From Halomonas sp. ML-15 (GTDB lineage: Bacteria > Pseudomonadota > Gammaproteobacteria > Pseudomonadales > Halomonadaceae): a stretch of 64,000 bases of DNA. Within the stretch, counting starts at the first letter, position 1. Each line of letters opens with the position of its first letter. Shown one piece after another: positions 14,946 to 36,772 of the stretch. The notes beneath the pieces are model-generated. The model was not told the DNA's origin. It did not search any database and worked only from the letters and a program-made list of their open reading frames with translations. The stretch spans positions 62,001-126,000 of the forward strand of contig NZ_JACXZT010000002.1 of the NCBI RefSeq assembly GCF_014779595.1, written 5' to 3'. A program made the position numbers and the translations under genes.

Positions 14946-14975
14946 GCGCCCAGCGCCCAGGACCTAGCGCCCAGT

Positions 14976-15003
14976 GACGGCCCGCCCCTTGGTGCGGGCC
15001 GTC
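14976..15003 (+). terminator. Terminator hairpin after pit
   Basis: GACGGCCCGC (14976-14985) pairs perfectly with 14994-15003 around an 8-base loop, 30 bp after the pit stop. The tail is only weakly T-rich. Confidence 0.65.
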
Positions 15004-15093
15004 TTGCGTCGAGTGGTGGTGCCGCGCTTTTCGCTGCTCTGCTATCATCGAGCCTCAACCCGATTCCATTCCTCTGCTGCCGGAGCGCGGCCC

Positions 15094-16407
15094 TTGAACA
15101 CTCGTTTCCCCTTCGTCGACTGGTTCCGCAATTCATCGCCCTATATCAATGCGCACCGCGGCCGAACCTTCGTGATTCTGATCGAGGGCGAGGCCATGGC
15201 GCAGGGGCGAGGCGAGCAGCTGATTCAGGACCTGGCGCTGCTGCACACCCTGGGGGTGCGGCTGGTGGTGGTGTTCGGCATTCGCCCACAGGTGAATGTT
15301 GCGCTGGAGGCGGCGGGGGTTACTCCGGTGCGCTACGACGGACGCTGGGTCGCCAACGACGCCATCATGGCCTGCGTCGAGCGGGTGGCCGCCGAACAGC
15401 GGCTATGGCTGGAGGCGCGGCTCTCCCTGGGGCTGCCCAACACCCCTCTGCACGGTGTCGAGCTGACGGCGGTTTCCGGCAACCTGGTGATGGCCAAGCC
15501 GCTGGGGGTGCGCGAGGGCGTCGACTTCGACCATAGCGGTGAGGTGCGTCGGGTGCGCGCCTCGGCGATACAGGCGCTGCTCGAGCAGGGCTCGCTGGTG
15601 CTGCTGCCGCCGCTGGGCTTCTCCAGCACCGGCGAGGTCTTCGATCTGGATGCCTCGGAGGTCGCCCAGCAGGCGGCGGTGGCGCTCAAGGCCGACAAGC
15701 TGATCCTGCTTGGCGAGGCCGATGGTCTGCACGACGAGAGCGGCGCACTGCAGCGCCAGCTGACGCCGTCCGAAGCCGAGCCGCTGCGCCATCACTGGCA
15801 GCCGGGTAGCGAACTCGATCGTCATCTGGCGGCGGCCTGTCGCGCCGCGCGCTACGGCGTGGCGCGCACTCACCTGCTGTCGTGGCACGACCACGACGCC
15901 CTGCTCGGTGAGCTGTTCACCCGCGATGGCATCGGCACCATGATCACTCAGCATCGCTACGAGCAGCTGCGTGCAGCGCAACTGGGCGATATCGCCGGCC
16001 TGCTCGAGCTGCTCGAGCCCCTCGAGCGGCGCGGCATGTTGGTGGCGCGCTCCCGAGAGCGCCTCGAACATGAGATCGACGACTACCTGGTGATCGACCG
16101 CGATGGCATGATCATCGGCTGCGCGGCGCTGCACGCCTTTGCCGAGGCGCAGATGGGCGAGCTGGCCTGCGTGGCGGTGCACGCTGACTACCGAGGCGGC
16201 GCGCGGGGCGAACTGTTGCTGGCCGAGACCGAGCGTCGCGCTCGACGTCTGGGGCTGACCTCGCTGTTCGCGTTGACCACCCACACCACCCACTGGTTCT
16301 TCGAGCACGGCTTTCGTCTGGCCGAGCTTAGCGAGCTACCGACCCTCAAGCGCGACGCCTACAACCATGCGCGTAAATCCAAGATCCTGCTCAAGCCACT
16401 TGGCTAA
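15094..16407 (+). CDS. argA: N-acetylglutamate synthase (amino-acid N-acetyltransferase) ArgA
   Basis: First step of arginine biosynthesis: acetyl-CoA plus glutamate to N-acetylglutamate. The N-terminal amino-acid-kinase-like domain (YINAHRGRTFVILIEGEAM) binds the arginine effector, and the C-terminal GNAT domain (CVAVHADYRGGARGELLLAETERRAR) is catalytic. TTG at 15094 is chosen because GGAG lies about 8 bp upstream and the protein then begins LNTRFPFVDWFR, aligning with E. coli ArgA and giving 437 residues against 443. A GTG at 14974 would add a 40-residue arginine-rich extension not seen in the family. Confidence 0.93.
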   Translation: MNTRFPFVDWFRNSSPYINAHRGRTFVILIEGEAMAQGRGEQLIQDLALLHTLGVRLVVVFGIRPQVNVALEAAGVTPVRYDGRWVANDAIMACVERVAAEQRLWLEARLSLGLPNTPLHGVELTAVSGNLVMAKPLGVREGVDFDHSGEVRRVRASAIQALLEQGSLVLLPPLGFSSTGEVFDLDASEVAQQAAVALKADKLILLGEADGLHDESGALQRQLTPSEAEPLRHHWQPGSELDRHLAAACRAARYGVARTHLLSWHDHDALLGELFTRDGIGTMITQHRYEQLRAAQLGDIAGLLELLEPLERRGMLVARSRERLEHEIDDYLVIDRDGMIIGCAALHAFAEAQMGELACVAVHADYRGGARGELLLAETERRARRLGLTSLFALTTHTTHWFFEHGFRLAELSELPTLKRDAYNHARKSKILLKPLG

Positions 16408-16453: not shown

Positions 16454-16471
16454 TGTCGCAGAAATGCGGCA
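16454..16471 (+). promoter_or_regulatory. GlrR-like binding dyad
   Basis: TGTCGCAGAAATGCGGCA fits TGTC-N10-GACA, the GlrR site known from enterobacterial glmY promoters, with one mismatch (GGCA). It lies about 210 bp upstream of the predicted sigma-54 promoter, at normal enhancer distance. The glrR gene lies downstream in the same locus. Confidence 0.45.
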
Positions 16472-16505
16472 AGTCGGCGTTGAGCGTCGCTAAAAAGCAA
16501 CTATT

Positions 16506-16518
16506 TAACTCATTGATT
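16506..16518 (-). promoter_or_regulatory. IHF consensus site
   Basis: On the minus strand AATCAATGAGTTA matches the IHF consensus WATCAANNNNTTR at every position and sits in an AT-rich patch. It lies between the GlrR-like dyad and the sigma-54 promoter, where an IHF bend would be expected. Confidence 0.55.
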
Positions 16519-16675
16519 CTTATGAATAAAGCTTTTCCTGGTTTTATTGTGTTGCCTAACGGCGACGGAATGGTCTGCGATCTGCCCCGCGTTTGGCGGT
16601 TTTCCGCACGTGCTAGCGAGTTGGCACTTTTATGTCGCCTTTAACATGCTGATTTTAAAGGTGGTGAGCGTTTTC

Positions 16676-16691
16676 TGGCACGGCTGTCGCA
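16676..16691 (+). promoter_or_regulatory. Sigma-54 (-24/-12) promoter candidate
   Basis: TGGCACGGCTGTCGCA matches TGGCACG-N4-TTGCA with a single change (TCGCA). The invariant GG (16677-16678) and GC (16689-16690) are at the required 12-bp distance. The predicted start is near 16702. No protein-coding gene with family support begins soon after, so it appears to drive the structured RNA described next. Confidence 0.65.
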
Positions 16692-16701
16692 ACTAGGTAG
16701 G

Positions 16702-17160
16702 GCGAGCAAGGGAATCGGATCATTACGGCTCGATCCGCTTCCCAGGCCAGACCGACAGGGCAAGCATCACCACCCTGTGCCACTTGCTCGACAGGTCTGG
16801 TCAGCGTCTGCTCCACGCGATGTGTGACTTAGGTTGCGATGAGACGGGGTGCCGCCGGTTAGGCAAGGAATGGCACCGTAAGGGCAAGGACGCCCCGGCA
16901 TGGATGCCTCATCCCCCTTCGGGGGGATCGAATTCAGGATAGCGCTGCCGAAGGCAGCGATATCGAGAACGAAGCCGAGTGGCACGCCACTCGCAGTGCG
17001 ACAGCGGCACCCTGGCATGAGGATGCTGGCGCGCGGCTTCAGAGCCTTTGGGCTCATAGAGAGTGATGATGGATTGTCCGGCCAGGCGGCTAATGCATCT
17101 CAATCTCTACCCCTTCAGTTCCCTGCGTACTTGGGCCGGCTCTGCCGGCCCTCTTTTTTT
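16702..17160 (+). ncRNA. Predicted structured non-coding RNA, sigma-54 driven, upstream of glrK
   Basis: No convincing protein frame fills this stretch, but it is dense in perfect hairpins: 16710-16721 with 16732-16743 (11 of 12 pairs); 16747-16753 with 16794-16800 enclosing further pairs; 16848-16853 with 16872-16877 plus an inner GCC/GGC; 16882-16885 with 16892-16895; 16911-16917 with 16922-16928 closed by a TTCG tetraloop; 16943-16949 with 16953-16959; 16977-16983 with 16986-16992; and 17042-17046 with 17051-17055. It ends at a strong terminator. The setting resembles glmY, which lies upstream of glrK in enterobacteria, but the length of about 460 nt and the sequence do not let me call it GlmY. 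A structured leader of glrK is the main alternative. Confidence 0.6.
17133..17160 (+). terminator. Strong intrinsic terminator before glrK
   Basis: GGGCCGGC (17133-17140) pairs perfectly with 17144-17151 across a 3-base loop, followed by a run of T residues to 17160. There is no coding gene with family support between argA and this point, so it marks the end of a separate non-coding transcript. Confidence 0.9.
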
Positions 17161-17246
17161 GCTCGACGGTAAAAACAGACAATTCTGTTATCCTGTGTGG
17201 AACAGCCATGACACCACCTCTTTTCCTTTTACATAGAACTTTGGTC

Positions 17247-18755
17247 ATGACCACCCAGGTTTCGCGCCGCTGGCGCCCCCGCTCTCTGCTGCAGCTGGTG
17301 CTGCTTGCTTTCATCGTGGTGATGCTGCCACTCGGCGTGCTGATGTTCCATGCCGGCCAGGCGCTCTCCGAGCTCACCCGCCTGGCCGACGTCAGCGCCC
17401 GTCAGGCGGTGGAGGAGACGCGCCGTGCCCGCGAGCTCTCCAGCCTGGCGCTGGAGATGGAGCGCAGCGCGCGACAGTACGCGGTGATCGAACAAGACGG
17501 CCTGATGGAGATCTATCTCGAACGCGTCGATGAGTTCGGTGAGTTGCTCGACCAACACCGCCGACTGCTGCCCGACGACCCGCATATGCTGGCGCTACTC
17601 GACCAGCTGTCGATGCTGCGCAGCATGCCCGAGCTACCCATCGAAGACTTCCGCGAAGAGCTGTTTGCGTTCGTGCCCTTTGCCGCCAACACCGAGGCGG
17701 TGCGGCGTGCCACCAATCGCCATATCGACACCCGTATCGACACCATTCGCGAGCAGGCCAGCAGCGTGCAGACCCGGCTGTGGCTGCAGACCGCCGCGCT
17801 GGTCTCGGCCAGCCTGATGCTGATGCTGCTGTTCACCTGGTTGATCATTCGCCCGATCCGCCAGCTCGAGCGGCGCATCCTTGGGCTCGGAGACAGCGGC
17901 AAGGCGGCGGCGCCCAAGACGATCCAGGGGCCAGCCGAACTGGTCAGCCTCGGCGACCGCCTCGACTGGCTGTCGTCGCGGCTCCGCGAACTCGAAGCGC
18001 AGAAGCAGCAGTTCCTGCGCCATATGTCCCACGAGCTCAAGACCCCGCTGGCCAGTGTGCGTGAGGGTACCGCGCTGCTCAGCGACGGTGTGGCCGGTGA
18101 GATCACGCCGCGTCAACTGGAGATCCTCGAGCTGATCGACAGCAGCGGTAAGGAGCTGCAGACCCTGATCGAACAGCTGCTCGACTATAATCTGCTGCAG
18201 CATGACAAGGGCACCAACGTGTCGCGCTTCGACGTTGCCACCGTGGTCAAGGAGCTACTCGCCAAGCATCAGTTGGCCCTTGAGCACAAGGAGATGCACG
18301 TCGAGTGGTTCGACAAGCCCCTCGACTGGCAGGCCGATCGTATTGCCACCGGGCGCATTATCGACAATCTGCTGTCTAATGCGATTGCCTACGGTGAAGA
18401 TGGCGGGGTGCTGGCCATCCGAGCCTGGACCCGTGGCGAACGGCTGTTTGTCGAAGTGGCCAACAGCGGTGAGCCGATTGCTGAAGAGGACCGGCCGCGG
18501 CTGTTCGAGGCTTTCTATCAGGGCCGTGCCCGGCGCAAGGGTCCGCTCAAAGGGTCGGGGATTGGCCTCTCCGTGGCCGCCGACTGTGCCCGCGCCCAGC
18601 ACGGAGAGCTGACGCTGGTGGACGAGAGTCAACTGCCGGTCTGTTTCCGACTGGTACTACCCTGGGCAGATGCTGAGGCAGAAGGGACGGCCGCAAGCAA
18701 GGTGCCTTTGATGCTGCCCTCAGAGGCGGCGAGTCATCACGCAAGGAACGAATGA
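17247..18755 (+). CDS. glrK: Sensor histidine kinase GlrK (QseE)
   Basis: A membrane histidine kinase aligning with E. coli GlrK along its length: a first membrane helix (LLQLVLLAFIVVMLPLGVL), a periplasmic helical sensor, a second helix (LVSASLMLMLLFTWLII), a HAMP linker, H-box RHMSHELKTPLASVREGT, LIEQLLDYN, then N, G1 and G2 ATP-binding boxes (KGSGIGLSVAADCARAQHGELTLVDES). The start is put at ATG 17247, which matches the E. coli N-terminus; an in-frame ATG at 17208 adds 13 residues. It is the first gene of glrK-qseG-glrR and phosphorylates GlrR. Confidence 0.93.
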   Translation: MTTQVSRRWRPRSLLQLVLLAFIVVMLPLGVLMFHAGQALSELTRLADVSARQAVEETRRARELSSLALEMERSARQYAVIEQDGLMEIYLERVDEFGELLDQHRRLLPDDPHMLALLDQLSMLRSMPELPIEDFREELFAFVPFAANTEAVRRATNRHIDTRIDTIREQASSVQTRLWLQTAALVSASLMLMLLFTWLIIRPIRQLERRILGLGDSGKAAAPKTIQGPAELVSLGDRLDWLSSRLRELEAQKQQFLRHMSHELKTPLASVREGTALLSDGVAGEITPRQLEILELIDSSGKELQTLIEQLLDYNLLQHDKGTNVSRFDVATVVKELLAKHQLALEHKEMHVEWFDKPLDWQADRIATGRIIDNLLSNAIAYGEDGGVLAIRAWTRGERLFVEVANSGEPIAEEDRPRLFEAFYQGRARRKGPLKGSGIGLSVAADCARAQHGELTLVDESQLPVCFRLVLPWADAEAEGTAASKVPLMLPSEAASHHARNE

Positions 18756-18758
18756 ACC

Positions 18759-19295
18759 ATGAACTATCGAACACTGTTGCCACTGGCGGCGATAGCGCTG
18801 CTGGTGGGATGTGAGTCGTTACCCGGTATGCAGCAGGACGAGGCAGAGCCTGAGGCGGAACTGCCCCGCCAGTGCAACGAGCCGATCCCGACCCTGGTCG
18901 AGAGCACATGCCTGGTCGACGCCTGGGTGGCCTACGGTTTGGCCTCCCAGCGCGGTGACAGTGAGTGGCGCGAGGAACAGCTCGAACAGCTGCAGGGCAG
19001 CACCCCCGAGCAGCACCTGCAGCGTGCAGTGGTGCTGGCCTGGGGCAGCGAGCGTCAATGGAACCAGGCGGCCGAGCTGCTGGAAGGTGACCTGCATGCT
19101 GCGCCCAGTGACCTGCAGCCGCTGCTGCGCTACTGGCTCAATGAAGTAGAGGGGCGACGGTCGCTGGCTAACCGGCTCGAGCGCAGCGAAAGCGAGCGCC
19201 GCAGCCTGGCCGAGGAAAACGAGTCGCTGGCCGAGAAGCTCGAGGCGCTGACCGATATCGAGCAGAGCATCAATCTGCGCCAATACTCGCCCTGA
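18759..19295 (+). CDS. qseG: Outer-membrane-type lipoprotein QseG
   Basis: A 178-residue predicted lipoprotein: the signal sequence ends in the lipobox LLVGC with Cys20, and the C-terminal third is a charged coiled coil (about 130-172). Position between the kinase and regulator genes, plus this layout, identify it as QseG, which in enterobacteria interacts with the GlrK sensor domain. It starts 3 bp after the glrK stop. Sequence conservation is low, so the name rests mostly on context. Confidence 0.8.
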   Translation: MNYRTLLPLAAIALLVGCESLPGMQQDEAEPEAELPRQCNEPIPTLVESTCLVDAWVAYGLASQRGDSEWREEQLEQLQGSTPEQHLQRAVVLAWGSERQWNQAAELLEGDLHAAPSDLQPLLRYWLNEVEGRRSLANRLERSESERRSLAEENESLAEKLEALTDIEQSINLRQYSP

Positions 19296-19329: not shown

Positions 19330-20712
<1,383 letters not shown>

Positions 20713-34789: not shown

Positions 34790-35193
34790 TCCCGCTGTCG
34801 GCGTAATGCTGGCACAGGGGAAACGGCGGGACGCGGCCCACCTTTGCAGGAGCAGACCTCCTTATCGCCAAGCGTTGCCAGATACATGGATTGCTGCCTT
34901 CGATTGCATGCGATTATGGTACTTATCGAATATCACTTATGCTGGTGCCTTGGCTACCGGCGGGTGGCGATTTAAGAGATGGCTTACGGAAATGCCAGCA
35001 ATATCTTACATCGCTGATATTGTATCCTCTCTAGTCCGCCTAGTGTTGCCAAAAACCACACGCATGCTGACATGGTGAGTTACGGGCATGTTGACTATCG
35101 TTAACTGAGGAATGGAGGCCGTCATTTAGGTCGCAGACCATGCTCGCGGGGTTGCCTTGGAGAAGGGCAGCCGCCGGGTGATGAGGGCACACC
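34790..35193. other. Intergenic stretch without recognised gene
   Basis: About 400 bp between the divergent MFS and membrane-protein genes. Short frames here have no family-like features, and I see no strong hairpin. It presumably holds the promoters of both flanking genes. Confidence 0.4.
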
Positions 35194-36611: not shown

Positions 36612-36772
36612 CACGCGGAAGTGGTGGAGCGTCGGGCGCTGCAACTATGACTTCTGTGCCAGGATGGCGGGTGATATTTAAGAAATATCTTACGTCACCT
36701 GTGGTGATAGTCTTATGTTTCTTGATTTAAATATGTGTAATTATCCATTCTCTTTTTTTGGAGGGTGGGTCG

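Follow-up and report, generated by a model that had tools for sequence, protein, structure and literature searches.

One of the nearest described counterparts of the locus reported here is glmY of Enterobacteria. GlmY (RF00128) is encoded in the same gene order, with the RNA followed by glrK (qseE), qseG and glrR (qseF), and its gene has a sigma-54 promoter, GlrR-type boxes and IHF-like sites; three putative QseF sites and two IHF sites have been described for the Proteus glmY promoter (PMC8745638). The Csr/Rsm RNAs (CsrB/CsrC, RsmX/Y/Z) present GGA in hairpin loops of the form seen by SELEX and NMR and are intergenic, with their own promoter and terminator; in many Gammaproteobacteria, Csr RNAs are activated by BarA-UvrY orthologues (PMC7652899). 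CsrB and CsrC of E. coli contain 22 and 14 GGA, respectively, and Pf1-Pf3 of Pseudoalteromonas, which are likewise intergenic, confined to one lineage and furnished with promoter and terminator, contain 9 to 25 GGA motifs, with no mention of sigma-54/GlrR control in the portion of that report cited here (PMC11882849). A third kind of comparable RNA is represented by McaS and GadY; these sRNAs act by base-pairing, bind CsrA as well and combine at least two GGA sites with a candidate pairing segment (PMC7652899). The argA-glrK gap of Halomonas sp. ML-15, which lies in the window (the whole 64-kb stretch of DNA analysed), has features of each of these systems. From its anatomy, the RNA predicted there would be expected to act as a Csr antagonist or as a dual RNA of the McaS type. 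It is much longer than McaS and GadY.

In the window, an 800-nt gap separates argA (14974-16407) from glrK (17208-18755, + strand), a QseE-type sensor kinase gene with HisKA and HATPase_c domains; the name is taken from gene order, as NCBIfam gave only sub-cut-off matches to general histidine kinases. Next come an ORF named qseG from its place (18759-19295, +), for which Pfam and NCBIfam searches gave no match, and glrR (19330-20712, +), encoding a sigma-54 activator that matches NF011695 with 810 bits against a cut-off of 763. The order is argA, predicted RNA gene, glrK, qseG-position ORF, glrR. Elsewhere the genome encodes a RapZ-family protein and a single CsrA of 65 amino acids. This CsrA resembles members of the CsrA family whose structures have been solved, including the RsmE-RNA complexes 2jpp and 2mf0-2mfh. 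CsrA of Halomonas hydrothermalis is 86% identical to that of E. coli (PMC12889724).

The preliminary description of this gap had reported a -24/-12 promoter, an upstream dyad and an IHF site, all of which were found where it placed them. The sigma-54 promoter, TGGCACGGCTGTCGCA, lies at 16676-16691 (+). With one mismatch allowed, two such elements occur in the window against 2.58 expected, so the match is not significant by itself and the evidence for the promoter is its conservation: the form TGGCA[C/T]-N5-[T/G][C/G]GC-N is present upstream of the RNA in all 25 orthologous gaps. The dyad, GlrR-like box 1 (16454-16471; TGTC-N10-GGCA), is one base away from the published QseF/GlrR consensus TGTCN10GACA (PMC8745638). 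A better box, the best in the gap, is box 3 (TGTTGCCTAACGGCGACG, 16550-16567), while box 2 (16485-16502) is degenerate here and good in several relatives, about -190 from the -24 element. A relaxed form of the consensus, TGTYN10RACR, was found 28 times in the 25 upstream regions, compared with a shuffle mean of 0.8 (maximum 4 in 200 shuffles); 19 regions had at least one such box and six had none, with most boxes near -190 and -126 relative to the -24 element. IHF-like sites were identified by matching to the IHF consensus. The first, TAACTCATTGATT (16506-16518, - strand), is a sequence match, and the second (16641-16655, -) is degenerate here but occupies a position (-33/-34) at which nine of the 25 regions match the consensus; 14 of the 25 contain an IHF-like match, a count made without a shuffle control. 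A scan of the argA-glrK gap with the GacA box consensus TGTAAGNNATNNCTTACA gave no match within three mismatches. Elsewhere in the window, three GacA-box matches with two mismatches were seen at 34971-35010 and 36677-36694 (0.55 expected), and inspection of the sequence revealed no evident GGA-rich RNA alongside them.

Taking the start from the promoter and the end from the terminator, we predict a non-coding RNA of about 459 nt (16702-17160, +). The intrinsic terminator (17133-17160, +) is strong, with eight G-C pairs and T7, and ends 47 nt upstream of the glrK start. A C-rich/G-rich UUCG-type hairpin lies at 16913-16926 (+), and the RNA as a whole folds with -216.1 kcal/mol, compared with -184.6 +/- 6.6 kcal/mol for 100 shuffles (z -4.8). 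Comparison with eight relatives detected no coding signal in seven ORFs of the gap: substitutions were spread alike over the three codon positions, frames shifted and stops appeared in many comparisons, and a protein gene in the gap was rejected. The hairpin, the terminator, the structured RNA and the absence of a convincing protein gene had all been proposed beforehand and stand. A near-invariant block of 42 nt, GCGTCTGCTCC...GCGATGAGAC, occupies 16804-16845 (+); the pattern for it was present in 89 of 131 RNAs, a set collected, like the set of 65 used below, mostly through the 3' motif, in which related sequences are not independent, promoter choice was heuristic and some RNA starts are probably wrong.

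A seven-helix structure was tested on a core alignment of 34 sequences (A1). In this structure 92.7% of alignment cells were paired, falling to 31-44% when the partner was slid, and structure prediction from the alignment alone returned nearly the same helices. Compensatory changes, suggested earlier as a check, bore out part of the structure: double-sided changes were seen in 27 cells against 8.6 in shuffles (none of 500 as high), but were confined to helices 3, 4 and 5 (the site A stem, its inner hairpin and site B, described below), with none in helices 1, 2, 6 and 7 of the 34-sequence alignment. Further pair types stayed at the shuffle level (18 versus 17.6; 247 of 500 shuffles).

A DNA search with the gap found matches in 25 of 58 genomes, all of them Halomonadaceae: its own genome and 24 of 36 others of the genus and family, with none in 21 genomes representing other families of the order. 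The matched DNA is flanked by argA and glrK in every one of the 25, three of which (G016, G018 and G025) were matched through the 3' end only. The family is sizeable, with the 3' motif TNAGTTCCCTGCGTA in 152 of 250 family genomes, and the gap has no Rfam 15 match at the gathering cut-off. In the open-access literature on Halomonas/Halomonadaceae sRNA, CsrA and GlrR/QseF, the scope of our search, the RNA is undescribed in the titles and abstract openings among the matches listed. A GlrR orthologue (NF011695, E<=1e-150) is encoded in 158 of the 250 genomes. Motif and GlrR occurred together in 151 genomes, GlrR alone in seven (G016, G058, G071, G076, G081, G091, G223), the motif alone in one (G067) and neither in 91, in a table that combines two result sets and derives 72 GlrR-negative genomes from totals. 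In G016 and G058 the RNA is nevertheless present, its motif altered by a base change. In six motif-less genomes (three of g11, two of g5, one of g24) and in G067, a GlrK search found at best remote kinases (1e-21 to 1e-24). A further six (G006, G019, G020, G021, G060, G076) have a GlrK-like kinase gene no more than about 150 nt downstream of argA, which leaves no room for the RNA; five of these lack GlrR at the threshold and G076 has a weak one (1.6e-156). Model R1 matched five of 194 order genomes, three of them Halomonadaceae, and missed G018 and G059, though both carry the 3' motif. Its two matches outside the family (E 0.001 and 0.009) were rejected, as they lie in long open frames without the promoter-plus-boxes arrangement, one of them with single stray pattern matches. 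The four non-Halomonadaceae matches listed in an 18-nt pattern scan (a Chloroflexi MAG, a Bacteroidota MAG, Prevotella and Lachnospiraceae) were taken as chance.

Shorter relatives were found at other loci. The loci examined contain 150 distinct motif sites, including at least four chance matches in unrelated organisms. A regular-expression test placed 110 of the sites ahead of a histidine kinase gene and 14 ahead of a GGDEF (diguanylate cyclase) gene; the GGDEF assignment was confirmed for all four of the 14 proteins that were checked. The GGDEF-linked RNAs (L031, L035, L074-L076, L087, L090, L091, L127, L159, L164, L195, L203, L206) are about 120-210 nt long, have the same 3' end and lie directly upstream of the GGDEF gene, 13 of the 14 behind a sigma-54-type promoter. 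In two genomes, G012 (L037) and G035 (L036), a second RNA of about 210 nt lies in tandem between argA and glrK, and the long and the short RNA each have their own -24/-12 element and terminator. Three other loci (L032, L081, L082) have the 3' motif and a terminator beside small ORFs, and no recognisable sigma-54 promoter.

The SELEX consensus of CsrA is RUACARGGAUGU, with loops mostly of six nucleotides (PMC7652899), and for RsmE the hexaloop recognised in hcnA is ACGGAU (PMC4005645). Two adjacent hairpins of the predicted RNA carry CsrA-type hexaloops: site B (16882-16895, +; helix 5, with a covarying stem) presents AAGGAC between GGGC and GCCC, and site C (16897-16908, +; helix 6, whose stem has no compensatory change) presents ATGGAT between GGC and GCC. 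Upstream of these, site A (16848-16877, +; helices 3 and 4) places AAGGA in the internal loop of a covarying stem that encloses an inner hairpin. A possible further GGA site, in a hairpin at 17012-17029 (+) with TGAGGA between CTGGCA and TGCTGG, is not conserved in distant relatives. The preliminary description had missed these hairpins, as well as the invariant 3' end and the paralogues.

Simply counting GGA in loops gives weak evidence for this RNA (4 versus 1.7, reached by 45 of 500 shuffles); motif and hexaloop tests with controls were run next. The motif CANGGANG occurred 129 times in 65 dereplicated RNAs and 9.4 times in shuffles (maximum 19 in 100 shuffles), while its reverse (7 versus 6.9), complement (1 versus 6.7) and reverse complement (3 versus 9.6) were not enriched. 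ANGGAN was found in a hexaloop closed by three Watson-Crick pairs in 98 of 233 occurrences, compared with 675 of 24464 for all hexamers (2.8%); the closing stems of these 98 were of nine kinds, with GGC/GCC in 84. At least one such hexaloop was present in 55 of the 65 RNAs, at least two in 42 and none in 10, and among the RNAs with the 42-nt block 34 of 34 had at least one and 33 at least two. Over both strands of the 64-kb window, nine of 281 ANGGAN lie in hexaloops, and the only pair within 40 nt is sites B and C. CsrA binding is not the function common to the RNA family, because 10 of the 65 RNAs lack a hexaloop and, among the 13 GGDEF-linked copies that have a promoter, only four present one and nine do not.

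Compared with CsrB/CsrC and RsmX/Y/Z, this RNA likewise has several conserved ANGGAN loop motifs, but fewer than classical members (two hexaloops and one internal loop, with nine GGA in total), and its promoter is of the sigma-54/GlrR type without a GacA box in the gap. The Rfam Csr/Rsm models (RsmY RF00195, RsmZ RF00166, CsrB) gave neither a gathering nor a weak match in the gap. A canonical Rsm RNA elsewhere in the genome (G000) was rejected, since the RsmY and RsmZ models had no match there. Sub-cut-off RsmY-like matches in three of 19 relatives and RsmZ-like matches in one of 19, each time accompanied by two of 14 control genomes, may be chance. Against a CsrA-binding role stand the weak result of the plain loop count, the low total of GGA, the members without hexaloops, the restriction of compensatory changes to helices 3-5 and the absence of an Rfam Csr/Rsm match in the gap.

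On balance, we consider it probable that the gap encodes a GlrR/sigma-54-activated RNA that binds, and probably titrates, CsrA, and whose invariant 3' segment has a second role. In this model, a small RNA of about 459 nt, from a family specific to Halomonadaceae, would be made when phosphorylated GlrR, aided by IHF, activates sigma-54 RNA polymerase at 16676-16691. The transcript would fold into several hairpins and end at the terminator (17133-17160), and the adjacent hexaloops AAGGAC and AUGGAU, aided by the internal-loop AAGGA, would bind a CsrA dimer. Activity of the envelope-sensing GlrK/QseG/GlrR system would then lower free CsrA and so reach the CsrA regulon. If this is true, Halomonadaceae, which are used in biotechnology (ectoine, PHA), have a GacA-independent route to CsrA, and the output of a two-component/sigma-54 circuit is exchangeable, from RapZ decoy to CsrA decoy, with input and promoter logic kept. 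A wider proposal, which we hold tentatively and regard as somewhat doubtful, is that Halomonadaceae rewired the GlrK/GlrR envelope-stress circuit by replacing the RapZ decoy GlmY with a family of sigma-54 RNAs that share an invariant 3' end and have exchangeable upstream modules. The glrK copy would catch CsrA and the diguanylate-cyclase copies would tie the 3' end to c-di-GMP signalling, giving a GacA-free Csr antagonist on a base-pairing chassis.

The 3' segment, CCCTTCAGTTCCCTGCGTA (17111-17129, +), is largely unpaired in the consensus fold. It is kept in the 34 block-bearing RNAs with a single C/T exception, in a set collected mostly through the 3' motif. All 25 orthologues contain the core of the segment, GTTCCCTGCGTA, and 22 of them had been matched in the DNA search through other parts. 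The exact motif has its sole copy in the genome in the argA-glrK gap. The segment is common to paralogues that mostly lack CsrA-type loops and probably has a second function, such as base-pairing with mRNAs. The same data can be read differently: the RNA would be a base-pairing sRNA first, with the 3' segment as its working part and CsrA acting on the RNA (as stabiliser, matchmaker or in cleavage control) instead of being titrated by it. CsrA binding to such sRNAs is known (PMC7652899), and the conservation of GTTCCCTGCGTA and its presence in GGDEF-linked copies, which mostly lack CsrA-type loops, speak for this reading. Most paralogues were, on the other hand, collected via the 3' motif, so that they contain it by construction, and no 13-nt complement of the segment with at most one mismatch was found in the genome outside the RNA, compared with seven for the reversed control, a result by which a long antisense target was rejected. 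We regard this alternative as unlikely, while giving it real weight. In ten genomes, matches to the reversed control seem to outnumber complements of the 3' segment, and either avoidance or composition may be the cause.

A long glrK leader, controlling read-through into glrK-qseG-glrR without any trans function, would account for a terminator ending only 47 nt before glrK and for the GGDEF-linked paralogues likewise preceding a gene, and glmY-qseEGF of Proteus is one operon (PMC8745638). The terminator is strong, though, and promoter type and 3' segment are kept in copies at other loci, making a mere leader improbable.

A diverged GlmY, acting as a RapZ decoy that controls glmS, is less probable still. 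GlmY itself binds RapZ and protects GlmZ from decay. The position before glrK, the GlrR/IHF/sigma-54 layout and the RapZ-family protein of the genome would suit a diverged copy. However, at E<=0.1 the GlmY model RF00128 had no match in 38 relatives; in E. coli, the control, it scored above the cut-off. At E<=10 the gap has six Rfam matches, none of them GlmY. The GlmZ model RF00083 matched nothing in the genome and reached only about 21 bits in two of 19 relatives, against a cut-off of 60; membership of either family was rejected. Unlike GlmY, the Halomonadaceae RNA is some 2.8 times the length of the 163-position model, has CsrA-type hairpins as its conserved features and a different 3' end, and presumably acts on CsrA, not RapZ. 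The preliminary description had been unable to align it with GlmY and suggested a distinct RNA of this lineage under the GlrR/IHF/sigma-54 circuit, a view that gains support, at the level of sequence comparison, from the conserved promoter architecture, covariation, GlrR co-occurrence, lack of a GlmY match and lack of coding signal. That the gap is an untranscribed relic or a chance assembly, which a promoter match not significant alone might suggest, is scarcely credible given the conservation, covariation and GlrR co-occurrence.

Outside the family, about 400 nt before glrK in G041 (L218, another family of the order), a -24/-12 promoter drives a small ORF in place of an RNA, and a terminator separates this ORF from glrK. 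By eye, the ORF contains an EF-hand-like motif and GlrR-type boxes lie upstream of the promoter; it is another output plugged into the GlrR circuit.
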